From Salinimonas lutimaris (GTDB taxonomy: Bacteria; Pseudomonadota; Gammaproteobacteria; Enterobacterales; Alteromonadaceae), in assembly GCF_005222225.1 (NCBI RefSeq), contig NZ_CP036536.1, forward strand, positions 1,636,001 through 1,700,000: a DNA stretch of 64,000 bases. Reading direction: 5' to 3'. A program made the translations under genes and the position numbers. Of this stretch, positions 29,897 through 64,000 are shown one piece after another. Under the pieces are notes generated by a model that had not been told where the DNA came from, did no database searches, and was given only the letters and a program-made list of their open reading frames with translations. Numbering within the stretch: position 1 is the first letter of the stretch; each line of letters opens with the position of its first letter.

Positions 29897-32050
29897 TTAT
29901 AACGCATAACTTAACCGAACCTGGGTAAACCTGGGCTGCCCGAACTGCACCTGTCCACCCCCGGAAATGTAGTTGTAGTACTTGTCGTCAAACAGGTTAT
30001 TCACGTTCAGCTGAATATTCAGCTGTTCAGTAATCTGGTAGCGCACCATTATGCTGGCAAGGGTTACCGCTTCCTGTACCACACCCGCTCTGGTGCTACT
30101 CTGACTCACCTCATCCATCCAGTTAATACCGCCGCCCAAGGTGAGTGCCGGCAGAGCAGCCAGCTGATAGCTGGTAAACATTTTAAATTGCTTGCGCGGA
30201 TAACTGGGGTTAACATCTACGCCACTGGCATCCTGCGCCTGATATTGCGACCATCCCATATTGATATTCCAGCCATCCACGGGCTGACCAACCAGTTCAA
30301 TTTCAAAACCGGTACTTTCTGTCCCCTGCGCTTCGCGCTGAGCCACGGTTGCCGGTGAACCGGGCACAAAATAAGGATTTCCCTGTGCATCCACGTCATC
30401 CTGGGCCAGATTATCCTGCTTAATGTTGAATACTGACATCGCAGTATGTAGCCGATCATCCAGAAAGCTGCTTTTCAGGCCCAGTTCGTAGGTGACTCCT
30501 TCCAGCGAATCAAGATAGTCGCCGTTTCTGTTCTGAGCATTCTGGGGCCGGAAAATATCGGTGTAGCTGGCATAAATACGGTGCTGGTCGGACATGTCGT
30601 ACAACAGGCCGGCATAGGGAATAAACACCCCTGTTTCACCAAAGTTAGTCGATGTGCCGTAGCTTTGCCCCTCACGCTCCCAGCTGGCAATACGGCCACC
30701 GGCAATCAGTTTGAGCCGCGGTGAAAGATGCAGACGGGTTGCTGCGTAAATCCCTTTTTGTTCTGTATCCAGTTGTTCTCCTACCGAGGTGGGTGAGTCG
30801 CTCCAGTCAGGTTCGGACCATTGATTATCCTAGGTGAAAATATTATCAATCGGCAAAGGGTCGCTGCTTATTACATCATAAACCTGAACCAGTGCATCCT
30901 GTTTGGAATACAGAGCGCCCACCACAAATTCATGCAGATTACCCAAAAGCTGATAATCACCTTTTAGCTGAATATCCAGACTATCCAGATCACTTTCGCC
31001 TGCAGAGCGATACGGCCAGGCAATCAAACCACTGCCGGTATCTTTGTCCAGTGCACCATACACATAAAGTAGTCGTACATTCGGCTTTCTATATTTCAGC
31101 TTGTTGTAATTGGCCTGAAGTTCCCAGCCGTTATCAAAGGTGTGCGCAATATTGGCAAAAAAATTACTGTTTTCGGTTTCCCAGCGGGTCCAGGATGCTG
31201 AGGTGGAGGTTGATACATCCCAGTCCACTGGCGAGCCATCGCTGTACAGGGCAGTAAGGCCTCCCCAAAAATTCCCTTCAGGCACATTGTGTTGATAACT
31301 CAGGCCGGCTCTTAGCAGGGTATTGTCAGTGATGTCACCTTCAATGACGCCGTAAAGTACGCTGGATCGATTGGAAAATATATCCAGGTAAGAGTCGCCT
31401 TCTTCGTATTTTGCCACCACGCGACCACGTACAGTGCCTGCTTCATTTAAGCCTGTCGATACATCGGTGGTTGCTTCCAGATTATTCCAGCTGCCCGCAG
31501 CCACACTGATAGTTCCACTAAAGTCGCGACTGCTAGCGTGTTTGCGAACCAGGTTGATAGAGCCGGAGGGATCGCCCACTCCGGTGAGCAGGCCGGTGGA
31601 GCCTCGTACAAATTCCACCCGGTCATACAAAATGACATCCGCGATGGTTTCGCCGGAATCGGCGGCGAGGCTCCAGGGCAGGGGAACACCATCAATCTGA
31701 TAGCTTTGAATGTCAAAGCCCCGGGCCTGCAATGTATTACGCACATTATCCAGCGCCCTGAAAGATACTCCGGTTGTATTCTGTACCACTTCAATAACCG
31801 TATCCAGCGCCTGATCCTGAATCCGTTCTGCGGTGATGACACTGACAGATTGTGGCGTTTCAAGCAGCGTCAGCCCTAAACCGGTGGCGGTATCAATGCG
31901 TTCCGCAACCGTGTAGCCGCCGACAACTTCGATATGTTCTATTTCATCTGACGGTTCATTGTTATCGGTCTGTGCCAAAACAGGCATGGTACTGAACAGC
32001 ATAAGTGTAGCGGCGGCGGCAGGACGATAGGTAAAGCAACTAGGTAGCAT
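29897..32050 (-). pseudogene. Siderophore-type TonB-dependent receptor with one in-frame TAG
   Basis: One continuous frame of 718 codons is interrupted by a single amber codon at 30832-30830 (codon 407). The N-terminal part has a signal peptide (about 1-26), a plug with SVSVITAERIQDQALDTVI and TLQARGFDIQSYQIDGVPLP, and FVRGSTGLLTGVGDPSGSIN, as in FpvA/FhuE-like ferric-siderophore receptors. After the TAG the same frame continues with DNQWSEPDWSDSPTS and through the barrel to the end FTQVRLSYAL. Everything else is intact. The likely ancestral codon is CAG (Gln) or TGG. A Fur-like box lies 85 bp upstream. It is a young nonsense mutation, a sequencing error, or a read-through case. Confidence 0.85.
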
Positions 32051-34443: not shown

Positions 34444-35763
34444 TCACCAGCGGTGTTTGCTACATCCAGCTACGGCATAAAATAATATATACAGGTAGCA
34501 GGGGATGGCCATCAGATATGCATTCAGAATGCCGAAATGATCCGACAGTGCGCCGAAGAGCATTGGCAGTATTGCCCCACCAGAAATCCCCATTATCAGC
34601 AGCGCCGAGCCTCTGGCAGTAAAATGTCCCAGCCCTTTGAGGGCCAGAGGCCACACTGCTGGCCAGACAATCGCGTTGGCAAGTCCCAGTAACGCGATAC
34701 AAGTGATAGGGTCGGGTAGCAGGCGAATACCAAGCCAGCCCCACAGGATTTGTGACAACCAGGTGCTGTTGATGTTACTTAGCGGAATGAGGGTGCACAA
34801 TAACACGCCCAGCACGGTACTGAGCATCAGCAACTGACGCTGTGACATCACATTGGGAGTCAGCAACAGGCCAAGACAATAACCTATTACCATAAATATC
34901 ATTGTAAATGAGGTCAGCCCCAGTGCGCCGGTTACACCAAGTTCAGAGCCTGCTAGCCCAATGGTATCACCGGCGATAACTTCCACGCCCACATAGAAAA
35001 ATAACGCTATTACGCCCAGAATGAGCTGAGGAAACTGCCACACTGAGCCTTCGCCTTTGCCAGCTTGAGACAGTGAATTTTGTTCTTCGTCCAACTCAAG
35101 GTCTGGCAGGCCGGAAAAATGCAGAATAACAGCAAGAGCACTCAACGCTGCAGCCATACTTAGGTAAGGCAATATCAGAGCGTCAGCCAGTGACTGAATT
35201 TGAAGCTGGCGTTCTGTCAGTGACAGTGCTGCAATACTTTGTGCGGTAACACCTTCAAAATCAGCCAGCACCATAGTAGTAAAAAGAATCGGAGCCAGCC
35301 AGCCAGCCCCCTTATTAAGCAGACCCATTACAGATATTCGCGCAGCAGCGCTCTCGTTGGGGCCGACCTTAACCAGGTATGGATTGGAAGCTGTCTGAAG
35401 TATGGTTAGCCCGGAGCCTACAATAAACTGAGCAAGTATAAACAGGATAAACATCTGAGACTCAGCCGCCGGTACGAACAGTACGCACCCGCCAGCCATC
35501 ATCAACAAACCGGCAGACATCGACATTCGGTATCCAATTTTATTGATAACCCACGACATCGGCAGCGCCATCACTACATATGCAATATAAAAGCTGAATG
35601 CGATGAGCAATGCTTCAGTGCTGCTTAACTGACACACAATCTGTAAAAAGGGAATCAGTGCACCGTTAAGCCAGGTAATAAAGCCAAATACAAAAAACAG
35701 GCTGCCAATAATACACATAGGTAAAAAGGTTGAACCGGTTGCTTTAAGGGTGGTTGTCGTCAT
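34444..35763 (-). CDS. nagP: N-acetylglucosamine MFS transporter NagP
   Basis: A 439-residue major facilitator of the FucP/GluP group that brings GlcNAc through the inner membrane. Family features are SLFFVFGFITWLNGALIPFLQ in the first helix, LTILQTASNPYLVKVGP, and GISGGAILPMLFGALSDHFG. The start ATG at 35763 overlaps the nagA stop (ATGA). NagP-type porters replace the PTS in Alteromonadales and pair with a separate kinase, as here. It is the last gene of the nag operon. Confidence 0.85.
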   Translation of the reverse strand: MTTTTLKATGSTFLPMCIIGSLFFVFGFITWLNGALIPFLQIVCQLSSTEALLIAFSFYIAYVVMALPMSWVINKIGYRMSMSAGLLMMAGGCVLFVPAAESQMFILFILAQFIVGSGLTILQTASNPYLVKVGPNESAAARISVMGLLNKGAGWLAPILFTTMVLADFEGVTAQSIAALSLTERQLQIQSLADALILPYLSMAAALSALAVILHFSGLPDLELDEEQNSLSQAGKGEGSVWQFPQLILGVIALFFYVGVEVIAGDTIGLAGSELGVTGALGLTSFTMIFMVIGYCLGLLLTPNVMSQRQLLMLSTVLGVLLCTLIPLSNINSTWLSQILWGWLGIRLLPDPITCIALLGLANAIVWPAVWPLALKGLGHFTARGSALLIMGISGGAILPMLFGALSDHFGILNAYLMAIPCYLYILFYAVAGCSKHRW

Positions 35764-36920
35764 GATTTTATCCCCGCAGTTTTGCATTTAAAAGGTGTAA
35801 CCGGCTGCCCATCGTACCAGCAATGAGTCAGGTTCAGTGATTGATCCAAGGCCAGGATATCGGCGCATCGGCCCTCTTCAATCAGGCCATGGCTATTTGC
35901 TTTATTTAAAAATCTTGCCGGTGTGGTGGTTGCCATTAACAGTGCCTGTTCGATGGGTAAACCTAGCTGTTCTACACTATTTTTTAGGGCCTCAGTCATA
36001 GTCAATACTGAACCAGCCAGCGTGCCGTTAGCAAGTGTTAAGGTATTGCCTGAACGGGTTATTTTCTGGTCGTGATAATAGAAGTGAGTACACTCGCTGG
36101 CCGCTGGCGCCATTGCATCGGTGACCAGCATAGTGCGGCTGGCACCCAGCAATCGTATGGCTGGTTTCGCGGTGGCCGGGTGAACATGAATACTATCTAC
36201 AATAATACCGGCAAAAGCGTGGGGATGATTTAGGGCCGCGCCAACCATGCCTGGCTCCCTGCTGGTAAGCGCAGACATGGCATTAAAAAGATGCGTGAAC
36301 CCCGCAGCACCTGCGTTCAGGGCCGCTGTGGCGGTAGCATAATCTGCTTCAGAATGGCCCAGCGATACGATCACGCCAGCTTCGGTCAACTGGGTGATTT
36401 GAGAGGGGCTAACTACATCTGGTGCCAGCGTGACTATGACCTGACCCAGATCTTGTCGGGTGAATAATTCTATTTCAGCGTCAGATACAGGTCGCAAATG
36501 CGTAAAACTATGCATCCCCTTTTTACCAGCGCTTAAGTGAGGGCCTTCAAAATGCAGGCCCGGCAGCCGGTGCGGCTGCGTTTTTCTGGCCAGAGCAAAA
36601 GCATCCGCACCAGCCCGCATCACGTCGATATCATCGGTGATTAAAGTTGGACATAAAGCCCCTGTGCCGGTTTTCTGGTGAGCATTTAGCATGGTAAATA
36701 ATGCCGCGGGAGTAGGGGTATGGTTGAACTGAACACCACCACCACCATTTACCTGAGTATCTATCATCGCCGGACAAAGCAATTCGTAAACCGGAGCGTT
36801 GGGCGGAGGAATAACATTAGTGTTCAGACTGGTAACTATACCGTTATTCAACGTCACACTGACCATTGAAAACATCCGGTAGCCATTAAATAATTGTCGC
36901 GCGTACAATGTTTCCATCAT
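35760..36920 (-). CDS. nagA: N-acetylglucosamine-6-phosphate deacetylase
   Basis: A 386-residue amidohydrolase that removes acetate from GlcNAc-6-P. Family blocks are CPAMIDTQVNGGGG, HFEGPHLSAGKKGMH, VSLGHSEADYATA, GFTHLFNAMSALTSREPGMVG, and VTDAMAPAA, which carries the catalytic Asp. The metal-binding residues His in LGHSEA and THLFNAM are in place. It overlaps nagB by 4 bp upstream and nagP by 4 bp downstream, so the operon is tightly coupled. Confidence 0.93.
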   Translation of the reverse strand: MMETLYARQLFNGYRMFSMVSVTLNNGIVTSLNTNVIPPPNAPVYELLCPAMIDTQVNGGGGVQFNHTPTPAALFTMLNAHQKTGTGALCPTLITDDIDVMRAGADAFALARKTQPHRLPGLHFEGPHLSAGKKGMHSFTHLRPVSDAEIELFTRQDLGQVIVTLAPDVVSPSQITQLTEAGVIVSLGHSEADYATATAALNAGAAGFTHLFNAMSALTSREPGMVGAALNHPHAFAGIIVDSIHVHPATAKPAIRLLGASRTMLVTDAMAPAASECTHFYYHDQKITRSGNTLTLANGTLAGSVLTMTEALKNSVEQLGLPIEQALLMATTTPARFLNKANSHGLIEEGRCADILALDQSLNLTHCWYDGQPVTPFKCKTAGIKS

Positions 36921-37912
36921 ATTGTCTCAGTGACTTTCTTCAGGCCTGCCGGATTATCCGGATCTAGTTGCATCTGTCGGGCGGCAAGCTCTAAGTCCAG
37001 ATAAAAACGCTGCATAATAAGCAAAGGAGATATTAGGGGATGTGCTGTTGGTCGCAGCATACTGATGACTGAGCCACCGCGCCGCGTGACTTCGCAAATT
37101 TGCTGGTCGTGCCAGCCTGATGTGGCATCGTTGATGGAAACATCAAAAACTGTCATGGGCCGGTTGAGCAAGGATATCGGACCGTGCAAAAACTCAGCAC
37201 TTGAAAAGGCCTCGGCGTGAATACCGCATACTTCTTTGAGCTTAAGGGCTATTTCACGGCTGATTGCGTAGCCAAAGGCCCGCCCCAGCACAACACAATG
37301 ACTTAATGGGCGTAGCTGATCGGCATTTAAAAGCGGCGACAGGGCAATAACCTTATCAAGTTCCTCTGGCAGAGTACGCACTGCCTCCATAAGGCTTTTA
37401 TCGAGTGTCACTGCTGCGACCATTCCCAGCAGCGCAAACAAAGTTGCAAGATAACTTTTGGTTGCCGCTACCGCTATTTCAGAACCGGCCCGCAGCGGCA
37501 CAAAAAAATCAGCAATGGTTTGAAGTTCTGAACTCTCGTCGTTGACCAGAGCCACCAACAATGCACCGGCTTGCTTTGCCATAGCAGCCTGAGCCAAAAT
37601 ATCTGGGCTTCGCCCTGACTGGGAAATGACAATGACCAGCGCTTTTTGCAGATTAAGCTGTTTTTTAAATACACTGTTTACCGAGGGCGCAGCAGCGGCT
37701 ACCGGTAACCCTAATTCGGTTTCAAACAGGTATTTGGCAAATACCCCAGCATGATCTGAGCTTCCTCGTCCAATCATATATACGAACTGCGGCTGGAATA
37801 AAGCCAGCTCTCTGGCCAGCGCCTGATATATCCCAGTATTGTCGGCTAACTGGGTTCTGAACGCAGATGGTGTATGCGCCGCTTCGCGAGCCATGTGTGT
37901 AGAAGTCATCAT
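36917..37912 (-). CDS. nagB-II: SIS-domain glucosamine-6-phosphate deaminase (NagB-II)
   Basis: A 331-residue protein with two SIS domains like the isomerase half of GlmS but without the glutaminase domain. Motifs are MIGRGSSDHAGVFAKYLFE, VISQSGRSPDILAQA, AVAATKSYLATLFALLG, and KLKEVCGIHAEAFSSAEFLHGP. In Shewanella and Alteromonadales this form replaces classical NagB and converts GlcN-6-P to fructose-6-P and ammonia. It overlaps nagK by 4 bp and nagA by 4 bp. Confidence 0.87.
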   Translation of the reverse strand: MMTSTHMAREAAHTPSAFRTQLADNTGIYQALARELALFQPQFVYMIGRGSSDHAGVFAKYLFETELGLPVAAAAPSVNSVFKKQLNLQKALVIVISQSGRSPDILAQAAMAKQAGALLVALVNDESSELQTIADFFVPLRAGSEIAVAATKSYLATLFALLGMVAAVTLDKSLMEAVRTLPEELDKVIALSPLLNADQLRPLSHCVVLGRAFGYAISREIALKLKEVCGIHAEAFSSAEFLHGPISLLNRPMTVFDVSINDATSGWHDQQICEVTRRGGSVISMLRPTAHPLISPLLIMQRFYLDLELAARQMQLDPDNPAGLKKVTETI

Positions 37913-38793
37913 TTTAATTCCTCTTGATAATGTCGCGCCAGAGCGACGGCGCCAGATTCTGGTGAGTCTGATGCCGGAGTGAGTAGCGTGCTGACAGAGT
38001 CAGGTAGCCAGGTTTGCCAGAATGAAGCAAGTCCGCCAATATGAGCGATCCGTGCCGGCTTATAGCGCTGTAACTGCTTAATTATCATTGTAAGATAGTC
38101 GGCGCCTTCACGAGCCACGGCGACGGCCTGCGGACAATTGCCTTCACATAATTCAATAATTAAGGGAGCCAGCCTGCCATAATCTGCTGGCCGGTAGTGC
38201 AGGGCTGCCCCTACAATATCGCTTGCGGTATGCAGCCCAAGGCTATGACATATGGACTCTGCAATCGCGTTAGGGGGATGTACACCATCTAAGGTTTCAA
38301 GGGTAAGTGACAAGGCTTTCCAACCCAGCCAGGCACCACCTGATTTATCTCCGAGCGGGAAGCCGTGCCCGCCAAAACTAGCGTGGTTTGGTGGATTCTC
38401 GACAAACGCCGAGCTGCCGGTGCCGGTGATTAAAATCGCGCCGTGTTGTCCATTATGTGCACCGCGACAGGCAATATGCAGATCAGTGGTTATCTTTGTA
38501 TTTGCAAATGGCAACTGCCAGTGCTGCGCTAACGTGTAATAGCGAGGAATATTAACCCCGGCCATACCCAAACAGGCGGTTGTACTGGCAAATATAGTTT
38601 CTGACAGTCCGGCCTGGCTAATAATTGTGGTCACGGCTTGCAGCACTGATAAGCGGGCAGTATTTTCGTCCTGTGCAGGATTGCACGGGCCGGCCAGTGC
38701 TTCGCCAATCAACCGGCCATGAGCATCTTCCAGACGGGCTTTACATTTGGTGCCGCCGCCATCTACACCTAAATAATATGATTGATTTTTCAC
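37909..38793 (-). CDS. nagK: BadF/BcrA-type N-acetylglucosamine kinase
   Basis: A 294-residue ASKHA-fold sugar kinase. The phosphate-1 loop is LGVDGGGTKCKARL, phosphate-2 is ILITGTGSSAF, and GDKSGGAWLG and IAHIGGLASFW follow. The family includes glucosamine kinase GspK and GlcNAc kinases; the presence of nagA in the operon points to GlcNAc as substrate, giving GlcNAc-6-P in the cytoplasm. It starts 27 bp after nagX and overlaps the downstream deaminase gene. Confidence 0.85.
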   Translation of the reverse strand: MKNQSYYLGVDGGGTKCKARLEDAHGRLIGEALAGPCNPAQDENTARLSVLQAVTTIISQAGLSETIFASTTACLGMAGVNIPRYYTLAQHWQLPFANTKITTDLHIACRGAHNGQHGAILITGTGSSAFVENPPNHASFGGHGFPLGDKSGGAWLGWKALSLTLETLDGVHPPNAIAESICHSLGLHTASDIVGAALHYRPADYGRLAPLIIELCEGNCPQAVAVAREGADYLTMIIKQLQRYKPARIAHIGGLASFWQTWLPDSVSTLLTPASDSPESGAVALARHYQEELK

Positions 38794-38820
38794 AATAATT
38801 CCTGAAGGCTCGAGAAAGCG

Positions 38821-39921
38821 TTATATTTTTATAAAAATGTGGCGACGATATAGCCACCAGACAGGCAACGTGCAAATACTCAGAAACAGCAATACCCATA
38901 AGGTCGCGCTCACTAGACCACTCAGTCCGGCTGAGTGTGCCAGTTGCTGATAAAGTGCATGCAAAGAGGTGCCGGAAAGTGGCCAGTCGAGTAGCTTTTC
39001 AATTACCACATGCAGGACATAAGCAGTAATCGCATTGGCACCGAATATCACTGGCAGGTAAGTTCCTGTGCGGTAGCGCATGATGTCGGTGTACCACACA
39101 ATAAAGCCCAGAATCATAGCGCCAATACCGCCAGTAGCCAGCACGAATGAGCTTGACCAGATTTGCTTGATAAAAGGAAAGGCAAGGCTCCATATACACC
39201 CTGTGGCAAAACAGCCAAAGCCCAGAATAAAGAGTTTTGCAGAAGTAGTATAAAGCTGTCCCCGGTTTTGCATCACAATATGGCCCATCAACATACCGAT
39301 AATGCCAGTAGAAACAGCGGGGAGCGTACTAAGTACACCTTCAGGGTCCCATGCGCCGCGCCACAGCATACCTGGAGCAAATTGATCAAACCAGTTAATC
39401 AGATTATGACCCCGTTCCAGACTTCCGGCTTCAATCCCTGGCGCAGGAACCAGCAGAATCAGTAACCAGTAGCTAATAAGTATGCCTGCGCCTATTTTGA
39501 CGGTTTGCCAGATGGAGCAATATATCGCCAGATAGCAACAGGCCAGGTAGACAATCGCTATTCTTTGTAACACGCCCAGTACGCGGATTTGTTCAAACTG
39601 GGTGTATAACAGATTGACGATAAGTCCAAGCGCAAACATTACAACAGCCCGATGCCACACTTTTTTTAACAAAGTACGCTGGGTGGCGGAATCTGTGAGT
39701 TGCTTGCTAAATCCTAGGGGAATAGCAACCCCGACAATCAGAATAAAAAATGGAAAAACCAGATCGGCAAACAAGATGCCTTCCCAGTGCGCATGTGACA
39801 ACTCGCCATAAGTGCCGGGACTGTTTACCACAATCATCGCGATTATAGTCAGACCTCGAAAAACATCCAAAGCGAGCAGCCGACTGGTCAGTTGCTGCCG
39901 GGAAGAAGAAGACATAGACAT
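38821..39921 (-). CDS. nagX: NagX: HGSNAT-like membrane acyltransferase
   Basis: A 366-residue inner-membrane protein with about ten helices. It starts MSMSSSSRQQ; an upstream in-frame TTG at 39936 has no ribosome site. RLLALDVFRGLTIIAMIVVN and FADLVFPFFILIVGVAIPL are the hallmark of the family that includes human heparan-alpha-glucosaminide N-acetyltransferase (HGSNAT) and bacterial NagX. NagX often lies in nag operons, with unproven function; transmembrane acetylation of glucosamine is the usual proposal. It is the first gene of the minus-strand operon, 47 bp from a NagR palindrome. Confidence 0.82.
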   Translation of the reverse strand: MSMSSSSRQQLTSRLLALDVFRGLTIIAMIVVNSPGTYGELSHAHWEGILFADLVFPFFILIVGVAIPLGFSKQLTDSATQRTLLKKVWHRAVVMFALGLIVNLLYTQFEQIRVLGVLQRIAIVYLACCYLAIYCSIWQTVKIGAGILISYWLLILLVPAPGIEAGSLERGHNLINWFDQFAPGMLWRGAWDPEGVLSTLPAVSTGIIGMLMGHIVMQNRGQLYTTSAKLFILGFGCFATGCIWSLAFPFIKQIWSSSFVLATGGIGAMILGFIVWYTDIMRYRTGTYLPVIFGANAITAYVLHVVIEKLLDWPLSGTSLHALYQQLAHSAGLSGLVSATLWVLLFLSICTLPVWWLYRRHIFIKI

Positions 39922-39967
39922 AGTTATTTGCTTCAAAAGTAATCAGTAACTTTACCGTATATTTTTT

Positions 39968-39985
39968 ATGTCAACGTTGTCAAAT
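39968..39985. promoter_or_regulatory. NagR operator, nag operon side
   Basis: ATGTCAACGTTGTCAAAT is a near-perfect palindrome centred on ACGT. It matches the LacI-type NagR motif of Alteromonadales (a TGACA-n-CG-n-TGTCA core), and a near copy stands before the receptor gene at 41172. It lies between nagX and nagR. Confidence 0.8.
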
Positions 39986-40109
39986 ATTATTTGGTGATTT
40001 TTTGTTCTCTGCATGATTATGCGGATGGTCACGCATATATTGCTAAGCAGGGGCGGTGTAACGTATGCTCAGTCACCATGTTGCTATGACGACCACAGGA
40101 TGTTTTTGC

Positions 40110-41132
40110 ATGAAAAAACCAACAATTAAGGATGTAGCCCGGCTGGCCGGCGTGTCGTTTAAAACGGTATCGCGGGTGGTGAATAAAGAAGCGAGTGTCA
40201 GTGATTCAGTACGCGAGCGGGTAAATGAATGTATTAAACAACTCAATTATCAACCCAACCGTACCGCTAGAACTATGCGTAAAGCACCATTTTCTCTGGC
40301 TTTTGTGTACGACAATCCTAACAGCCATTACGTGATAGAAATGCAGAATGGCATTATTTCACAATGCCGTGAAAATGGATTCGAGCTGGTCATTCATCCT
40401 ACGGATTCACGCTCAGAAGAGGTAGGTAAAGAGCTGGCAGCCATGATTGGTTCGAGTCAGATTGGTGGAGTTATTCTGACACCTCCGCTTTCTGAAAATC
40501 GTGAGCTGGTGACCTTTCTTATCGGTCAGCAGGCTAAGGTTGTGAGAATCCTATCAGGTAGTGAGCCGCCTGATAATCTTGCACCCGTCGTCTATGTGGA
40601 CGATGTGGCTGCCGCGCAAACCCTGACCTCTCATTTGCTCAGCCAAGGACATACGTCTATTGGGTTTATCGGGTTTAACGACAGTCACGAGTCTAGCCGG
40701 GGGCGCTTAAAAGGGTTTACACAGGCCCACCTTGAACGCGGACTGAGTGTTAATAAAAACCTGATTCTGGATGGTGAGTTTACGTTTGAGTCTGGCATGG
40801 AAATGACACGTATTTTGATGGAAAGCGACAATAAACCTACCGCGATTGTGGCCTGTAATGACGAAATTGCGGCGGGCGCAGTATTTCAAGCCCGGATTCT
40901 GAACTACCAAATACCTGAAGATCTTTCTGTTGCCGGATTTGAGAATAGTCCGTTTGCTATTCAGACCTGGCCCCATTTGACGACTATCGACCAGCCAAAT
41001 GTTCAGATTGCCGCAGCTGCTGCCAAGCTGGTCATTAATATGATGCAGAAACCAGACACGGAACATATCTCGTCTGCCGGCTTTACCCTGAATTTAATTG
41101 AAAGAGACTCTGTAACCTGTTTAACGCAATGA
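40110..41132 (+). CDS. nagR: LacI-family regulator of GlcNAc use, NagR
   Basis: A 340-residue repressor. The N-terminal helix-turn-helix and hinge are KPTIKDVARLAGVSFKTVSR, VVNKEASVS and LNYQPNRTARTMR. A periplasmic-binding-like effector domain follows with GHTSIGFIGFNDSHESSRGR and VACNDEIAAGAV. The frame is open to 40065, but MKKPTIKDVARLAG at 40110 is the family start. Position between the two arms of the locus, and palindromes before each, support control of both. GlcNAc-6-P is the likely effector, by analogy with Shewanella. Confidence 0.88.
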   Translation: MKKPTIKDVARLAGVSFKTVSRVVNKEASVSDSVRERVNECIKQLNYQPNRTARTMRKAPFSLAFVYDNPNSHYVIEMQNGIISQCRENGFELVIHPTDSRSEEVGKELAAMIGSSQIGGVILTPPLSENRELVTFLIGQQAKVVRILSGSEPPDNLAPVVYVDDVAAAQTLTSHLLSQGHTSIGFIGFNDSHESSRGRLKGFTQAHLERGLSVNKNLILDGEFTFESGMEMTRILMESDNKPTAIVACNDEIAAGAVFQARILNYQIPEDLSVAGFENSPFAIQTWPHLTTIDQPNVQIAAAAAKLVINMMQKPDTEHISSAGFTLNLIERDSVTCLTQ

Positions 41133-41171
41133 ATATAAATTCACAAAACTGAATTTAATTTTATTTTTATG

Positions 41172-41190
41172 TTTGACAACGTTGACATTA
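41172..41190. promoter_or_regulatory. NagR operator, receptor side
   Basis: TTTGACAACGTTGACATTA contains the palindrome TGACAACGTTGACA (41174-41187), nearly the same as the one at 39968. It lies about 120 bp before the TonB receptor start and just after nagR, so it should place receptor and GH89 under NagR. Confidence 0.8.
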
Positions 41191-41310
41191 GTGGGTAGTT
41201 TTGAAGTGAGGTGGTGAAAAAATGATCACCACAATAAAAACAATAAATCTGCTGTCAGTTCGTTTGCCGGGATTGACCTTCACAACATGTTTGAAATGTG
41301 GGAACTACAC

Positions 41311-43944
41311 ATGAAGCTTTTATCATTCAGAAAGACAGTACTAACCAGTGCCATTCTTTATGCATTGAGTTACCCTTCCGTGGCGCAGGAAACTGGGTCA
41401 GATACAGATATTGAACGAATTGATGTGACCTATCGCTCCAGTCTGGTTAAGGCCGCTGCTCTTAAGCGGGATGAAACCAAGGTGTCCGATATAATAACGT
41501 CTGAAGATATTGGTAAATTTCCTACTGAAAATATCGCCGAAGCGATTCAGCGAATTCCCGGCGTGCAAATTTCTAACATTAATGGTCGTGGCTCTACAAT
41601 CAGTGTACGTGGATTAGGCGCACAGTATGCCAGAACTACAGTCAATGGTCAGACTTTGGCTAATGCAGATTTTACCAGTGGTTTTCGCTACGACATTATC
41701 CAGTCAGAGCTGGCGTCGTCTATCTCGGTCATTAAATCACCAAATGCGCAAATGGATACTGGTGGTCTGTCTGGTACTATCAATATCGATACCACGCGCC
41801 CTCTGGCTTACAATGACCGTAAGGTGGTGGCGTCGTTAAAAGGCCAGTATTCTGAGTTTTCACCCACCGATGATGTTACCCCTAAAGCGAATATTACCTA
41901 TATCGACCAGTTTGCCGGTGACACTATAGGCATATTCCTCAATGCAGGTTATCAAGCGCTCGATGACCGGGTTGATAACATGTGGATGGGACGTTGGTTT
42001 AGTGATGATGACGGTAATTTCTATCCGCGCCGCCCGCGTTATCGCCGGATTGATCGCGAAACCGAGCGTCAACTGTTCAATGGCACTATTCAATGGCGTC
42101 CGACTGATGCCTTTGAGGCAAGCTTCACCGCTATATATGCTGATGATGATACTCAGCAAGATCTCAACCAGCAGGTATTTTTGTTCGATGCTGACGATAT
42201 TACCCTGACCAGCGAGGCGGTAAACGGCGTATATAATAGCCTGCAAATTTCAGATTTTACCCTGGAAAACAACCGCCAGGCAGAAGACAAGCAGGCAACA
42301 AGTAAAGCTTTTACTCTGCAGGCCAAATATGAGTCTGACCACTGGCTATATAGTGGTGTTGCGCATTACACCAGCGGTGAGGCTGTACATGCAGAAGAAG
42401 CAGTGATTCTGGCTACCAGTGTGTCGGCAACCATGGATATTACAAACCGCAATGATGTGATATTTGACGTAGCAGAAGACTTAACTGATCCATCGCTGTA
42501 TCCGGCTGATATGCCACGTAATGAATATCCCAACGGCGCGTCACGATTTATGGATTCCTCTGAAACAGCGCTGCAGTTTGATGCAATGCGAATGTTTGAT
42601 GAAGGCTTCGTGACGAGCATTAGTTTTGGGGCCAAGTATCGCAATGAAGAGTTCAACCGGGAGTTTTATCGTACAGACCGCTTCGCAATAGGTGATGCTG
42701 CGCCAGAAGATCTTCCTCTGATGAGTGAATTTAACTACCAGGTGACTGATTTTCTGGATAATCAAATGTCGGTGGAACATGCCTGGATTGCTCCCGACAT
42801 TCAGGCATACAGAGATGCACTGGAAGCCGAAGGTGTGGCTATTCCAACATTTTTTGCTCCACAATCCAGTTACGGTGTAGAGCGTGACATTATGGCAGTA
42901 TATTTACAGGCCGATTTTGATACTTATCTTGGCGAGTATCCGTTTCGCGGTAATATCGGAATGCGTTATGAAACCACTGACCGGACAATAAACAGCTACC
43001 TCACCGGTGACAGCCGCGAGGACAATGGTGAAATAAAAATTGCGCTGGGCGAAATATCTACGGACTTTGATTACAGCAACTTTTTGCCTAGCGTGAACCT
43101 GGTATTGGAACTCACTGATGAGATTCAGGCCCGTTTTGCCGCAGCCAAAGTATTGGTCAGGCCGATTCTCACATCAAATTCGCAAATTGCTGCCTCTGAA
43201 ACATCAGCAGCAAACTCATTCGGCACCACCACTTATACCGCAAATCTGGGACAGCCGGAGATGGAAGCACTCACCGCTAACCAGGCCGATCTGGGGCTGG
43301 AGTGGTACTACGGCGAAGGGGATAGCCTCGCGTTAACCCTATTTGTGAAAGAGTTAAAAAACGGTGCGGTCACTGATTTTGTCTGCCCTGAAAATTACAA
43401 TGGCACAGCTCTGACTGGTACACCGCAGGACTGTTTGGATGCGCAGGGTAACATTTATGAAATTGAAGCTACTTACAACGATGATGCCGGCACCACTATC
43501 AAAGGCTATGAAATTGGCTGGAATCAGGGGCTGGATGCATGGTTACCAATAAAAGGTTTTGGGATAAATGCTAATTACACCTTTATTGACGCTGAGGATG
43601 ATGAAGATTTTGTGCTGACTAATTCTTCTGAAGAAACCTGGAATATTATCGGCTACTGGGAAAATGACGTATTCAGTGCACGGGTCGCGCTCAACCATCG
43701 CAGTCCGTATGTACAGGATAATACTGATGCATTTTTTGCTCGCGAGGGGCGGGTAGTGGATGGCAGAAATCAGATTGACGTATTGCTAAGCTACAACGTG
43801 ACCGACCAGCTGAACTTACGCTTTGGGGCTTTGAATATCAATGGAAATGATGAAGAAGCCTACTTCACCGAAGACATGCCGGTGTGGCAAACCACTAGTG
43901 TCATTGGTAAAAGTTATTATCTGAACGCCGTGTATTCGTTTTAA
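41311..43944 (+). CDS. TonB-dependent outer-membrane receptor, carbohydrate type
   Basis: An 877-residue outer-membrane transporter. The start is the ATG at 41311, where a signal peptide begins (MKLLSFRKTVLTSAILYALS, cleavage near PSVAQ). The plug has VSDIITSEDIGKFPTENIAEAIQRIPGVQI and ISVRGLGAQYARTTVNG, the pattern of the TIGR01782 (Xanthomonas/Caulobacter CUT-type) receptors that carry oligosaccharides. The barrel ends in YYLNAVYSF with terminal Phe. With the NagR site and the GH89 gene next to it, I infer import of GlcNAc-containing oligosaccharides. Confidence 0.88.
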   Translation: MKLLSFRKTVLTSAILYALSYPSVAQETGSDTDIERIDVTYRSSLVKAAALKRDETKVSDIITSEDIGKFPTENIAEAIQRIPGVQISNINGRGSTISVRGLGAQYARTTVNGQTLANADFTSGFRYDIIQSELASSISVIKSPNAQMDTGGLSGTINIDTTRPLAYNDRKVVASLKGQYSEFSPTDDVTPKANITYIDQFAGDTIGIFLNAGYQALDDRVDNMWMGRWFSDDDGNFYPRRPRYRRIDRETERQLFNGTIQWRPTDAFEASFTAIYADDDTQQDLNQQVFLFDADDITLTSEAVNGVYNSLQISDFTLENNRQAEDKQATSKAFTLQAKYESDHWLYSGVAHYTSGEAVHAEEAVILATSVSATMDITNRNDVIFDVAEDLTDPSLYPADMPRNEYPNGASRFMDSSETALQFDAMRMFDEGFVTSISFGAKYRNEEFNREFYRTDRFAIGDAAPEDLPLMSEFNYQVTDFLDNQMSVEHAWIAPDIQAYRDALEAEGVAIPTFFAPQSSYGVERDIMAVYLQADFDTYLGEYPFRGNIGMRYETTDRTINSYLTGDSREDNGEIKIALGEISTDFDYSNFLPSVNLVLELTDEIQARFAAAKVLVRPILTSNSQIAASETSAANSFGTTTYTANLGQPEMEALTANQADLGLEWYYGEGDSLALTLFVKELKNGAVTDFVCPENYNGTALTGTPQDCLDAQGNIYEIEATYNDDAGTTIKGYEIGWNQGLDAWLPIKGFGINANYTFIDAEDDEDFVLTNSSEETWNIIGYWENDVFSARVALNHRSPYVQDNTDAFFAREGRVVDGRNQIDVLLSYNVTDQLNLRFGALNINGNDEEAYFTEDMPVWQTTSVIGKSYYLNAVYSF

Positions 43945-43964
43945 CGTTTCATGAAAGAGCCATA

Positions 43965-43986
43965 GTGCCGCTGGTAACAGCGGCAC
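43965..43986 (+). terminator. Hairpin between the receptor and GH89 genes
   Basis: GTGCCGCTG and CAGCGGCAC form a perfect 9-bp stem with loop GTAA, starting 20 bp after the receptor stop. No U-run follows, so it is more likely a partial terminator or mRNA-stabilising hairpin that adjusts GH89 expression than a full stop. Confidence 0.5.
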
Positions 43987-44007
43987 ATGCAATAGAAGGG
44001 TAAAGCA

Positions 44008-46230
44008 ATGATAAAAAGGCAAATATATACGTTGCGCCTTGTACTTTTAGGATGTGTTGGTATGGCGCTGTTATCAGGGCTGTACGGATGTAGTGAGCCA
44101 GTCGTTAAGCCGCTACAACGCAGCGCACAGGAGCAAGCCGCCAGCGAGGTTATCAGCAGAGTAACCGGACGAGATCAGCCGGGAGTTATCATGAAATATA
44201 TTGCTGATAATGAGCCTGACTGGTACCAGGTTAAGACCACTAATACGCATATGACAGTAAGCGGAAACAGTACTACGGCAATGACCTACGGGGCATATGA
44301 GGCCTTGCGGGAACAGGGAGCACTGAGTGTCAGTTGGGAAGGGAACCGGGTGGCGATGCCAACACGATGGCAGCCGCAACAAAGCGAAGTTACGGCCACA
44401 CCCTTTGCTCTGCGCAGTTATTTGAATGTATGCGCGTATGGATATACCACACCCTGGTGGACCTGGCAGCGCTGGGAGCAGGAACTGGACTGGATGGCGT
44501 TGCATGGTGTGAATAACCCGGTAGCGATGGAAGGGCAGGAGTTTGTATGGCAGCAATTATGGAGCGAGTTCGGCGTTAGTGATAAAGCGTTGGCTAGCTA
44601 TTTTTCCGGACCGGCGTTTACTCCCTGGCAGCGTATGGGCAATATAGAAAGTCATGCCGGGCCTTTGCCGCAAAGCTGGATAAACAAAAAGCATAAGTTG
44701 CAGAAAAAGATACTGGCTAGAATGGAAGAATTGGGTATGCAGCCGGTCGTGCCTGCATTTAGCGGCTATGTGCCTAAGGCGTTTGCGCTTCAGCATCCTG
44801 ATGCCAAAATTTACGCCATGCCCAAATGGACTGGGTTTGAACATGAGACTTACTGGCTTGATCCCGCAGATCCTCTATTCAATAAGCTAGCTAAGCGCTT
44901 TATCGAGCTGTATACCGACAGCTATGGCAAGCACCGTTATTATTTATCCGATGCATTTAATGAAATGTTGCCACCGGTATCGCAAGATAACCGCTATGAA
45001 GATCTGGCTCGCTATGGCGAGCGCATATTTTCCTCCATTACTCAGGTATCCGATGATGCGGTATGGGTGATGCAAGGTTGGATGTTTGGTGCTGATGAAG
45101 AATTTTGGGACTTACCCTCCATCGAGGCATTTTTAAGCAACGTGCCTGACCAGCAAGCCATGATTCATGATATTGGTAACGATCGCTACCATGTCTGGCA
45201 ACGGACTGAAGGATTTAAAGGTAAATCCTGGGTATTTGGGTTTATTCATAATTATGGTGGGTCCGATCCTGTATATGCTGGGTTGTCTGATTATGTTACC
45301 CAGCTACAGACTGCGGAGCAGGCGAATATTCAGGGTAATATGACCGGCTTTGGTGTGTTTCCGGAAGGACTGCATAATAACTCTGTAGCCTATGAGTTTT
45401 TATTCGACTTGCCATGGCAAACTCAGCCAGATATGCAGAAGTGGTTGCAAACTTATACCCGGGCCCGATATGGCAAAACATCCCCGACTCTGATAGCAGC
45501 ATGGAAACAGCTCATAGACGGTGTATTTTCAACTTCCTATTGGCAAAGTCGCTGGTGGGAAGGCTCTGCCGGAGCTTACCTGTTATTTAAGCGGCCCGAT
45601 GAAACGCTGGTGGAGTTTGGTGGTCACCCTGGAAACGAACAGGCGCTAAATGATGCGCTGGCTACCCTGATAAAGCTGGCACCGGATTATCAGAATTCCA
45701 CTTTATTTATGTACGATTTGGTGGACTTTACCAAGCATGCGGTGAGTTTGCGTACTGACTCTAAGCTTCAACAGGCTGTCAGCGCTTATAAAGAGGGCGA
45801 TGTAGAAAAGGGGGACCGGCTGACGGCGGCAGTGACTCGTGACATAAAACAGCTTGATGCATTGATGGGGCTACACCAGGAAAGCCTGCACAGCTGGTTG
45901 ACCGATGCGAGTAATTACGCGGATACCCCGCAGGAAGAAGTGGTGTATCTGCAAAATGCACGACAACAAATCACGATATGGGGCGGTCCAAAATTGAAAG
46001 ATTATGCTTCTAAAGCGTGGCAGGGTATGTATGCCGGATTTTATTTGCCCCGCTGGCAAATGTATTTGCGGGCTTTGCGAACAGCTGCAGTTAACCATAT
46101 CCCATTTGATCATGATGCCACTTCTCAGCAAATACTTGATTGGGAACAGGATTGGGTTAATCGCACCCGTATTCCACCGTTACATGTGCCAGAACAGCCT
46201 GTTGAGCAGATAATGATGCTGTTACGTTAA
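44008..46230 (+). CDS. GH89 alpha-N-acetylglucosaminidase, lipoprotein
   Basis: A 740-residue glycosidase related to human NAGLU. The N-terminus is a lipoprotein signal ending GLYGC (Cys28). A small alpha/beta domain (about 40-125) precedes the barrel that starts near RSYLNVCAYGYTTPWW. The acid/base is probably E319 in LSDAFNEMLPPV and the nucleophile E453 in GVFPEGLHNNSVAYEF. A helical C-terminal domain completes the fold. It cleaves terminal alpha-GlcNAc from glycans. The expected site is the periplasm or the cell surface, anchored to the outer membrane. RBS GAAGGG precedes the ATG; it is probably cotranscribed with the receptor. Confidence 0.92.
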   Translation: MIKRQIYTLRLVLLGCVGMALLSGLYGCSEPVVKPLQRSAQEQAASEVISRVTGRDQPGVIMKYIADNEPDWYQVKTTNTHMTVSGNSTTAMTYGAYEALREQGALSVSWEGNRVAMPTRWQPQQSEVTATPFALRSYLNVCAYGYTTPWWTWQRWEQELDWMALHGVNNPVAMEGQEFVWQQLWSEFGVSDKALASYFSGPAFTPWQRMGNIESHAGPLPQSWINKKHKLQKKILARMEELGMQPVVPAFSGYVPKAFALQHPDAKIYAMPKWTGFEHETYWLDPADPLFNKLAKRFIELYTDSYGKHRYYLSDAFNEMLPPVSQDNRYEDLARYGERIFSSITQVSDDAVWVMQGWMFGADEEFWDLPSIEAFLSNVPDQQAMIHDIGNDRYHVWQRTEGFKGKSWVFGFIHNYGGSDPVYAGLSDYVTQLQTAEQANIQGNMTGFGVFPEGLHNNSVAYEFLFDLPWQTQPDMQKWLQTYTRARYGKTSPTLIAAWKQLIDGVFSTSYWQSRWWEGSAGAYLLFKRPDETLVEFGGHPGNEQALNDALATLIKLAPDYQNSTLFMYDLVDFTKHAVSLRTDSKLQQAVSAYKEGDVEKGDRLTAAVTRDIKQLDALMGLHQESLHSWLTDASNYADTPQEEVVYLQNARQQITIWGGPKLKDYASKAWQGMYAGFYLPRWQMYLRALRTAAVNHIPFDHDATSQQILDWEQDWVNRTRIPPLHVPEQPVEQIMMLLR

Positions 46231-62155: not shown

Positions 62156-64000
62156 TTATACCGCCTCTACGGTGTAGATCAGTGATGTTTGCGGGAATAG
62201 CACCGGCATTTGCATGCCAAAGGTCATCAGGGCTTCGCCACTGAAAATCTCACCATCCGTTTTTTGTAAAATAGACGGAGAGTATTCTTTCAGGTTACCC
62301 AGTTCTGCCCGGTTCAGGCGATATTGCTGTTCCGGGTTCAGACCGGCGAAATAAAAACGCGACGGAATAGTACGGCCGGTCTCTTTCACGTTGTTGTAAG
62401 CAAAGATGCCCTTTGATTTGTCCTTGGCCACATAACCAAACTTCACATTCAGCCCATCATCATCCATTCGGAATAAATCACCGCTGTGTAACAACGAGCG
62501 GTTTTCCTTGTACAGATTAATAGCAGTCTTCAGCACCTCTTTTTCATGATCTGTTAACTCACGTGGGTCCATTTCGATACCCATATGCCCAAACATGGCA
62601 ACTGCACTGCGCAGTTCGATGGGCAGATGACGGCCGGTAATATGGCAGTCGCGCGGACCCACGTGGGCGCCCATAACTTCTGATGGGAAGAAGAAAGAAA
62701 AACCACGCTGAATATACAGGCGATCCAGTGCGTCATTGGAGTCAGAGGTCCAGAAGCGATCCGTGTGTGGCAAAATACCTAAATCAACCCGGCCGCCGCC
62801 TGAACAGCAGCTTTCAATCTCCAGTTGCGGATGTGCAGCGCGGACCCGGTCGATAAGGGCATACAAGGCGCTCATCTGACCGTGCATGGCCGGCTTACCG
62901 GCCAGGTTCCCCGGGTGATTAACATCGCGGTTCATATCCCATTTTATATAAGTGATTTTAGGATAGGCGGTCATTACATCATCAATCACCTTAAACAGAT
63001 AATCGGTGACATCCGGGTTGGTTAAATCCAGTACATACTGATGGCGAAATGGAATATGCGGGTTATTTTTGGTTTGCAGCGCCCATTCTGGATGTGCCCG
63101 GTACAAATCAGAGTCCGGATTAACCATTTCCGGCTCAAACCAGATACCAAATTCCATGCCTTTATCGGTGACATAATCAATCAAGCTATCAAGACCCTGC
63201 GGATAAATGGCTTCATCAACAGTCCAGTCGCCCAGCCCTGCATGGTCGTGACGACGGCCCTTAAACCAGCCATCATCCAGCACAAAGCGCTCCACGCCCA
63301 GCGGGGCCACTTCATCCGCCAGGGCTTTTAATGTGGTTTCATCATGATCAAAGTAAATGCCTTCCCAGGTGTTGTAATGTACCGGGCGGGGCTTACTTTG
63401 AGCACTATGGCGCAGTATGTTGACGCGGATATATTCATGGAATTGTCGAGACAGCGCAGAAAAGCCATCCTGTGCAAAGCCGGCATACAACACAGGAGAA
63501 GTATAAGACTGGCCGCTGGCCAGGCTGACTTCGCCGGGCAGCAGTAATTCACCAAACTGCACATAGCTGCGGCCATCAGCCATCATCTCTGCACGCAGGC
63601 GGTGGTTGGCAGAAGCACCCAGATGAAAGCCCATGCATTCACCGTGCAATTCAGCTGTTCCTCTGGCATAGGCCAGCAGGCCGGGAAATGTATCGTGTGA
63701 GGTTTTTCCGCGGCGGTTTTCACGCACATACGAGCCCATAAACAGATCATGATCCTGAGTCTGAAACTCATTTGACCAGCGTCCCTCAAAACCACGGATG
63801 CTGGTAAAGTGCATTGGCAGAGAGAGGGTAGCGGCATTCAGATACGACAGGTTTATCGCAGTCTGTCCGGTATTTTTAATACTACTGGTAAAGGTGGCCA
63901 CACTGGTGTTGCTATCCAGTGTCACGGTCAGGGTCAGCAGCAGTCCGCGAGTGTCATCAGACAGGGTGAAAACTGCCTGTTGAGCGTTGTGCTCAATATT
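62156..64000 (-). CDS. GH36 alpha-galactosidase (5' end outside window)
   Basis: An open frame of about 614 codons reaches the right edge without a start; the GTG at 63925 is internal, because the 25 codons beyond it are also open. It is a family GH36 enzyme that releases terminal alpha-galactose. The nucleophile Asp is in YIKWDMNRDVNHPG and the acid/base Asp in FWTSDSNDALDRL. Other family blocks are FVLDDGWFKGRR, FGIWFEPEMVNPDSDLY, and ESCCSGGGRVDLGILP. Typical length is about 700-720 residues, so roughly 100 N-terminal residues are missing. No signal peptide can be judged. An adjacent sugar locus probably lies outside the window. Confidence 0.92.
   Translation of the reverse strand, partial: NIEHNAQQAVFTLSDDTRGLLLTLTVTLDSNTSVATFTSSIKNTGQTAINLSYLNAATLSLPMHFTSIRGFEGRWSNEFQTQDHDLFMGSYVRENRRGKTSHDTFPGLLAYARGTAELHGECMGFHLGASANHRLRAEMMADGRSYVQFGELLLPGEVSLASGQSYTSPVLYAGFAQDGFSALSRQFHEYIRVNILRHSAQSKPRPVHYNTWEGIYFDHDETTLKALADEVAPLGVERFVLDDGWFKGRRHDHAGLGDWTVDEAIYPQGLDSLIDYVTDKGMEFGIWFEPEMVNPDSDLYRAHPEWALQTKNNPHIPFRHQYVLDLTNPDVTDYLFKVIDDVMTAYPKITYIKWDMNRDVNHPGNLAGKPAMHGQMSALYALIDRVRAAHPQLEIESCCSGGGRVDLGILPHTDRFWTSDSNDALDRLYIQRGFSFFFPSEVMGAHVGPRDCHITGRHLPIELRSAVAMFGHMGIEMDPRELTDHEKEVLKTAINLYKENRSLLHSGDLFRMDDDGLNVKFGYVAKDKSKGIFAYNNVKETGRTIPSRFYFAGLNPEQQYRLNRAELGNLKEYSPSILQKTDGEIFSGEALMTFGMQMPVLFPQTSLIYTVEAV

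Follow-up and report, generated by a model that had tools for sequence, protein, structure and literature searches.

We examined a 64,000-nucleotide stretch of the Salinimonas lutimaris genome (contig NZ_CP036536.1, positions 1,636,001 to 1,700,000; hereafter the window), which contains at window positions 34444-46230 an eight-gene locus for the use of N-acetylglucosamine (GlcNAc) that includes nagX and a gene for glycoside hydrolase family 89 (GH89). We propose that the locus serves the inducible uptake and catabolism of glycans ending in alpha-linked glucosamine (GlcN) or GlcNAc, and that NagX acetylates before GH89 cuts; we assign this reading a probability of about one half. It draws on the gene content of the locus and its conservation among relatives, on palindromic boxes and retained active-site residues, and on the recurrent pairing of GH89 with NagX in other bacteria. 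A first-pass annotation of the same DNA had reported the eight genes, and searches with Pfam and NCBIfam profiles confirmed them; its interpretation as a whole is partly supported. The minus strand carries nagP, nagA, nagB-II, nagK and nagX, and the plus strand a LacI-type regulator, a TonB-dependent receptor and GH89.

The identification of GH89 and NagX as homologues of the human lysosomal enzymes NAGLU and HGSNAT is borne out by profile and sequence matches. The GH89 gene (44008..46230, plus strand) scores 410 bits with PF05089 (NAGLU), its NAGLU N-terminal, TIM-barrel and C-terminal domains all exceed their cut-offs, and its N-terminus is signal-like, with a possible lipobox at C28 as judged by eye. 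In an alignment to 4xwh the catalytic pair is kept as E319 and E453 (positions counted by hand, residues then checked), corresponding to what we take to be the catalytic glutamates of human NAGLU, E316 and E446. The nagX gene (38821..39936, minus strand) starts at TTG 39936, with ATG 39921 or 39915 also possible, and encodes a transmembrane acetyltransferase of the HGSNAT family: HGSNAT_cat (PF07786) matches with 30.1 bits, over its cut-off, and the human HGSNAT chain at an E value of 1.1e-21. Its residues N38, H48, D58, R118 and E199 align with N286, H297, D307, R372 and E499 of HGSNAT (positions counted by hand), so that all five active-site residues checked are kept. In HGSNAT the catalytic dyad is proposed to be H297-D307, the acetyl carbonyl is held by N286, and the hydroxyls of glucosamine are bound by R372 and E499 (PMC11199644); in a second structure paper, too, the equivalent Asn and His lie at the acetyl group (PMC11357348). 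Across 127 aligned NagX sequences the His and Asp are invariant, the Arg is kept in 52/52 GH89-linked and 65/75 unlinked rows, and the Glu in 51/52 and 66/75. The Asn in the N286 column occurs in 43/52 linked and 33/75 unlinked rows; we dropped it as a marker of GH89-linked NagX, since gaps are frequent in that alignment column and a threonine stands there in canonical rows.

The co-occurrence of GH89 and NagX in other genomes, set beforehand as a test, was found in several samples. A draw of 196 genomes from the family contained nine with GH89 and 117 with NagX, and in eight of the nine GH89 genomes both lay within 5 kb. In 80 Bacteroidota genomes, seven of which have GH89, NagX adjoins three of the seven GH89 clusters (eight genes; centre genome excluded). 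GH89 matches 22 records in PLSDB, with NagX within 10 kb in ten of them, and in all nine alphaproteobacterial plasmids NagX is the next, overlapping gene (five by annotation, four from Novosphingobium by longest open reading frame, ORF). Among 80 GH89 loci from GTDB species, NagX lies within 10 kb in 45; these comprise 20 gammaproteobacterial loci, one from Novosphingobium and 24 from other phyla, with Mucilaginibacter strongly over-represented. In 18 genomes NagX is near 11/38 GH89 genes within 5 kb, and 12/38 within 10 kb, versus 1/130 GH20 genes at either distance; however, the genomes were hand-chosen from the 80 loci and the linkage of seven loci had been seen beforehand, which inflates the count for GH89. 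For this count NagX fragments were merged (45 to 43 rows), second GH20 fragments dropped (134 to 130), and eight GH89 rows of six added genomes excluded, leaving the 38. The pairing is not special to the source genome, and its presence in several bacterial phyla suggests that the two enzymes work together. The best 120 of 2480 matches included no NAGLU protein listed with an HGSNAT domain, which leaves room for longer or more distant fusions.

A phylogeny of NagX (134 ORFs and the window protein, reduced to 127 rows after eight identical ones were dropped) shows how this linkage is distributed. The GH89-linked label needs nine changes on the tree, at least seven of them forced by supported branches, versus about 40 in shuffles. 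The linkage is therefore clustered yet spread over several lineages, and it arose or was lost repeatedly. The window NagX falls in a clade of 22 linked rows with a long stem (1.37), which is joined at support 90 to eight unlinked rows from genomes reached via their GH89 loci. Rows L082-L111 come from loci some 4 kb long; they were scored as unlinked since their genomes have no GH89, and so was L088, the one exception, which has its GH89 on a different contig.

The cassette as a whole is also conserved. Searches by tblastn with the window proteins found all eight genes together, the receptor adjoining GH89, in 16 of the 80 GH89 loci (L002, L005-L011, L013-L016, L019, L022, L023 and L037), which indicates that their grouping is not due to chance; L012, at a contig end, has all but nagR. 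The Alteromonas loci are divergent like the window, and the Rheinheimera loci form one colinear run. Besides the GH89 cassette, two Rheinheimera genomes (G045 and G111) have another nagK-B-A-P-X locus with a different NagX, 34 and 31% identical to that of the window; of these additional loci the one scanned, L126, holds a chitobiase-type GH20.

The remaining genes of the locus are of the kind known from Shewanella. The nagK gene (37909..38793, minus strand) encodes a BadF-type GlcNAc kinase (PF01869) with 286 bits on NF046058 (NagK_SO3507), under the cut-off of 370; nagB-II (36917..37912, minus strand) encodes a SIS-type glucosamine-6-phosphate deaminase with 473.3 bits on NF046059 (NagB_SO3506), over the cut-off of 430; and nagA (35760..36920, minus strand) a GlcNAc-6-phosphate deacetylase with 263.4 bits on TIGR00221, over its cut-off. 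The GlcNAc transporter of the major facilitator superfamily (MFS) encoded by nagP (34444..35787, minus strand, start at 35787 or 35763) reaches 490.9 bits with NagP_SO3503, whose curated cut-off is 625, and 232.9 bits with gluP, over its cut-off. Because nagX (172 of 480 bits), nagK (286 of 370) and nagP (491 of 625) remain under their curated cut-offs, the Nag proteins are a diverged branch of the Shewanella kind. The 4-bp overlaps that had been described among the last four genes are present at nagK/nagB and nagB/nagA, whereas that of nagA and nagP measures 4 bp only if nagP starts at ATG 35763, and 28 bp for the longest ORF starting at 35787; nagX and nagK are separated by 27 bp. On the other strand, the TonB-dependent outer-membrane receptor (41287..43944) scores 598 bits with TIGR01782, over its cut-off, and the LacI-family regulator (40065..41132, with starts at 40065, 40086 and 40110 possible) has LacI (71 bits) and Peripla_BP_3 (124 bits) domains. 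No NCBIfam equivalog cut-off is reached by the regulator, the best match being lactose_RbsR with 174 bits, under its cut-off, so its name, NagR, rests on context.

The view that this is an alpha-GlcNAc locus controlled by this local regulator, as had been claimed, is supported by the family searches and by putative regulator boxes. One box, TGTCAACGTTGTCA (39969..39982), lies between nagX and nagR, and another, TGACAACGTTGACA (41174..41187), between nagR and the TonB receptor, upstream of the latter; the palindrome TGWCAACGTTGWCA is present at both. Genome-wide, the 12-mer TTGACAACGTTG is matched perfectly at these two boxes and nowhere else. In the 24 loci in which boxes were examined, at least one occurs in each of 18 (the 16 full cassettes, L003 and L004), with one in L022 and two or three elsewhere; L116 likewise carries a putative box, and none was found in the ordinary nag loci L126 and L127 nor in L017, L018 and L020. 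The boxes flank nagR in the divergent layout and lie between nagR and the receptor in Rheinheimera. A LacI regulator with palindromic boxes before its target genes is what characterizes a NagR regulon; a GlcNAc-responsive LacI-family NagR was validated in Shewanella oneidensis (PMC3223726), and NagR regulons expanded with chitin genes are described for many genomes (PMC5343134).

In the pathway that we envisage, the TonB receptor would bring an oligosaccharide into the periplasm, where the inner-membrane NagX could draw on acetyl-CoA from the cytoplasm to N-acetylate periplasmic glucosamine, most likely while this still forms the alpha-linked end of the glycan, in the manner of HGSNAT. GH89, as a periplasmic enzyme or lipoprotein, would then remove alpha-GlcNAc, NagP would import it, and NagK, NagA and NagB would convert it to fructose-6-phosphate, acetate and ammonia. 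The LacI-type regulator would repress both arms through the two boxes until released by GlcNAc. The first-pass annotation had NagX acetylating glucosamine that was already released; we keep the acetylation but, by analogy with the lysosome, would place it before cleavage. As is established for the lysosome from mucopolysaccharidosis (MPS) IIIC, the order there is HGSNAT first and NAGLU second. GH89 needs the N-acetyl group, and release of glucosamine by GH89 is not expected. The structural work on HGSNAT likewise has it acting before the glycosidases (PMC11199644).

A serious rival, though somewhat less probable, is that NagX acetylates only free periplasmic glucosamine, in which case it would be the NagX of an ordinary nag operon and would lie close to GH89 because the two share a regulon, without any chemistry in common. 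NagX is present in nag loci without GH89, and the fitness of five bacteria on glucosamine led to the proposal that NagX acetylates periplasmic glucosamine (PMC9007349), in a study that also argues against a role of NagX as a sugar transporter. However, GH89 and NagX are paired without nagK, nagA and nagB of the window type in Rheinheimera L018 and in 24/24 linked loci outside Proteobacteria (distant types would escape detection), NagX is near GH20 in only one case of 130, and in the two genomes with two nag loci the GH89 locus has a NagX lineage of its own. Acetylation before cleavage is favoured because the expected product of GH89 is GlcNAc, so that a NagX limited to free glucosamine would gain little from its position. 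Both may nevertheless be true.

Several observations weigh against our reading of this locus. The window NagX reaches only 172 bits on NagX_SO_3504 (NF046061), far under the equivalog cut-off of 480; judged by its sequence, it is a member of the HGSNAT/NagX family outside the curated NagX equivalog. NagX is common without GH89 (117 versus nine of the 196 family genomes), and other NagX genes are found near GH20 (L126) or beside GH3 (L124); NagX is a general module that can serve free glucosamine. Conversely, NagX is missing from the 10 kb around GH89 in 35 of the 80 loci, several of which are truncated by contig ends, and on plasmids NagX is near GH89 in none of five Actinomycetota and neither of two Haladaptatus plasmids, and in one of six Bacteroidota plasmids, 7 kb away. 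Even among the close relatives, L003 and L004 keep all genes but the receptor between nagR and GH89: L003 has no receptor match, and in L004 a relative of the receptor is located elsewhere. Finally, with one mismatch TTGACAACGTTG has 18 sites in the genome versus 22 for a reversed control, so only the perfect form of the box is informative.

As for the substrate, GH89 is the only glycosidase recognised at the locus, as had been stated, and neither GH18 nor GH20, one of which would be expected at a chitin-type nag locus, has a match in this genome of 4.12 Mb in one contig at an E value of 0.001 (GH3, GH84 and GH109 were not searched for). The genome holds one GH89 and one NagX. A second nagK-nagA pair at 3.918 Mb adjoins a LysR gene (L177 5746-7786), and no nagB, nagX or hexosaminidase was recognised among the seven ORFs scanned around it. 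Within the window, the Pfam scan covered 30 of the 46 ORFs of at least 150 amino acids; it also recovered a GH97 (9709-11796, plus strand) and a GH36 melibiase (62156-63925, minus strand), both far from the nag locus, and a TonB-dependent receptor that seems split into two ORFs (29897-30628 and 30830-32050, minus strand), one for the plug and one for the barrel part, perhaps a broken gene.

A tentative and, in our estimate, rather unlikely extension is that GH89 and NagX form a widespread two-enzyme module for mixed alpha-glucosamine/alpha-GlcNAc ends, one natural substrate being the head group of glycosyl-inositol-phosphoceramide (GIPC), in which GlcN(Ac) is alpha-1,4-linked to glucuronic acid (GlcA) and this alpha-1,2-linked to inositol; applied to the window's own locus, it would be an extrapolation from relatives. 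The head-group disaccharide of the GIPCs of plants, algae or fungi is the same as in heparan, without sulfate. Rheinheimera L018 carries a run of TonB receptor, GH89, NagX, a phosphatidylinositol-specific phospholipase C (PI-PLC), GH28 and a 509-residue protein, with nagK, nagB, nagA and nagP not found in 22 kb; L037 has this PI-PLC and GH28 after its full cassette. GH115, presumably an alpha-1,2-glucuronidase, neighbours the pair in Sphingomonas, and GH28, GH92 and SusC/D are near it in some Bacteroidota. The GIPC structure fits GH89, NagX, PI-PLC and, in Sphingomonas, GH115; for GH28 we know of no activity on GlcA-inositol. In plant GIPCs the inositol-phosphoceramide bears GlcA, to which GlcNAc or GlcN is attached, the tobacco form being GlcNAc(alpha1-4)GlcA(alpha1-2)inositol (PMC8099651, PMC6151786). 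Forms with GlcN and with GlcNAc both occur in tobacco (PMC8099651); this would account for the association of an acetyltransferase with GH89. A fungal phospholipase C acting on GIPC is known (PMC11496612).

The neighbours of GH89 point in the same direction in part. Within 10 kb of GH89 in 94 loci, 53 linked to NagX and 41 unlinked, we found GH28 in 7/53 versus 1/41, PI-PLC in 3/53 versus 0/41, GH92 in 20/53 versus 7/41, GH35 in 14/53 versus 0/41, GH2 in 2/53 versus 1/41 and matches to a sulfatase query in 2/53 versus 2/41; related genera are counted repeatedly, and all queries except the sulfatase were taken from linked loci, a bias towards that group. A Pfam tally agrees, with GH28 in five of 93 neighbours from linked loci, whereas 87 neighbours from unlinked loci include two sulfatases and two GH20, and GH28 is absent from the 25 families listed. 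The tally was made on selected neighbours (93 of 104 linked and 87 of 141 unlinked candidates, ORFs above 1000 residues excluded; 25 of 105 and 25 of 118 families listed, respectively), and L037 accounts for seven of the 11 neighbours dropped from the linked set, L028, L033, L136 and L138 for one each. Against GIPC stand the plasmid records, in which the GH28 queries match 0/10 linked and 1/12 unlinked loci and PI-PLC none, the PI-PLC of L047, which lies more than 8 kb from GH89, and the window itself, where no gene of the PI-PLC, GH28, GH92 or GH115 type was recognised among the scanned ORFs.

An alpha-GlcNAc-capped galactan or mucin-like glycan, with GlcNAc alpha-1,4-linked to galactose, we consider improbable. 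It would accord with the A. confluentis and A. lipolytica loci (L004 and L006), in which a LacZ-type GH2 gene (domain scanned in L004; homologue found by blastp and phmmer in L006) adjoins a second TonB receptor that has a third box at its start or upstream of it, and with the GH35 genes near GH89 in the 14 linked loci, all from Mucilaginibacter or Pedobacter. However, the arrangement of box and GH2 is limited to these two Alteromonas loci, and no beta-galactosidase was recognised among the scanned window ORFs. Heparan sulfate or heparosan, the heparan-type substrate raised by the first-pass annotation, is very improbable: NAGLU does act on GlcN(Ac)-alpha-1,4-GlcA, but neither a polysaccharide lyase nor a uronate gene was recognised among the scanned window ORFs (no genome-wide search for heparosan lyases was made), and the sulfatases, including an N-sulfatase, that heparan sulfate degradation demands are not apparent, the genome having two PF00884 matches, of which the only strong one is the lipid A phosphoethanolamine transferase EptA and the other a 25.8-bit match in a 407-residue frame. 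Heparan sulfate is thus rejected for the source genome, as it has no clear sulfatases; heparosan, the oligosaccharides of which are cleaved by a Bacteroides GH89 (PMC8225759), is a possible substrate, though an improbable one.

Some neighbours of GH89 and NagX merit mention in their own right. The 509-residue protein of L018 (16171-17700), with relatives in L009 and L037, is a candidate new enzyme; it has no Pfam match at 1e-8 and, like the PI-PLC of L018, no sequence relative in the PDB at 0.1, whereas the L018 GH28 has polygalacturonase-type and other PDB matches. L021, a GH89 locus without nearby NagX, has a sulfatase gene (5376-6935) whose product carries an N-sulphoglucosamine sulphohydrolase C domain, and is possibly a true heparan-type locus. 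A fusion of glucosamine-6-phosphate isomerase and PIG-L (GlcNAc-PI de-N-acetylase) adjoins GH89 in L182 (6808-8736) and NagX in L147 (6323-8248). In L124 (6740-9839) NagX directly follows the GH3 gene, near an SSF transporter, another pairing of NagX with a glycosidase. The archaeal GH89 of the Haladaptatus plasmids L202 and L204 lies amid PhoX and PhoD-like phosphatases, with a 5'-nucleotidase in L202, and may belong to phosphate scavenging.

If our reading is true, these loci offer bacterial stand-ins for the human HGSNAT-NAGLU pair, with the genes together and easy to test, and explain the role of some NagX proteins beyond free glucosamine; if GIPC is the substrate, they also point to a bacterial breakdown route for a major plant sphingolipid. 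In the literature within our reach, which left out most subscription journals and preprints, we found no paper joining GH89 with NagX, or HGSNAT and NAGLU with a bacterial operon, and NagX together with HGSNAT only in the fitness paper (PMC9007349); a search limited to Bacteroides found none on GIPC breakdown with glucosamine. The pair is nevertheless visible to anyone who looks at the five annotated plasmids, because NCBI already names the neighbour of GH89 there a heparan-alpha-glucosaminide N-acetyltransferase domain protein.

Among known systems, the Shewanella GlcNAc/chitin pathway (NagR, NagP, NagK, NagB-II, NagA and NagX) has the same enzyme set, MFS transporter, LacI-type regulator and TonB receptor (PMC2996990, PMC3223726); the window differs in having GH89 instead of chitin-type hydrolases, and its NagX, NagK and NagP are below the NCBIfam cut-offs. 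The Asticcacaulis and Sphingomonas plasmids share the core, with GH89 and NagX overlapping by 4 bp and a TonB receptor upstream (divergent in two), and a BadF kinase comes next in 4/4 Asticcacaulis plasmids. However, GntR regulators (Asticcacaulis) or a sigma factor and FecR (Sphingomonas) are nearby, and, unlike in the window, the pair is followed in four of the five plasmids by a GalA beta-galactosidase together with GH43, an arabinofuranosidase, a fucosidase or GH115. The human lysosomal HGSNAT-NAGLU system has its homologous enzyme pair in the window, with the active-site residues kept, and a topology like that of HGSNAT would be expected for NagX, with acetyl-CoA on the cytoplasmic side and the sugar on the other. 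NagX is shorter (371 versus 663 residues), and in contrast to the lysosome the source genome has no clear sulfatase, and the product would pass into nag catabolism.

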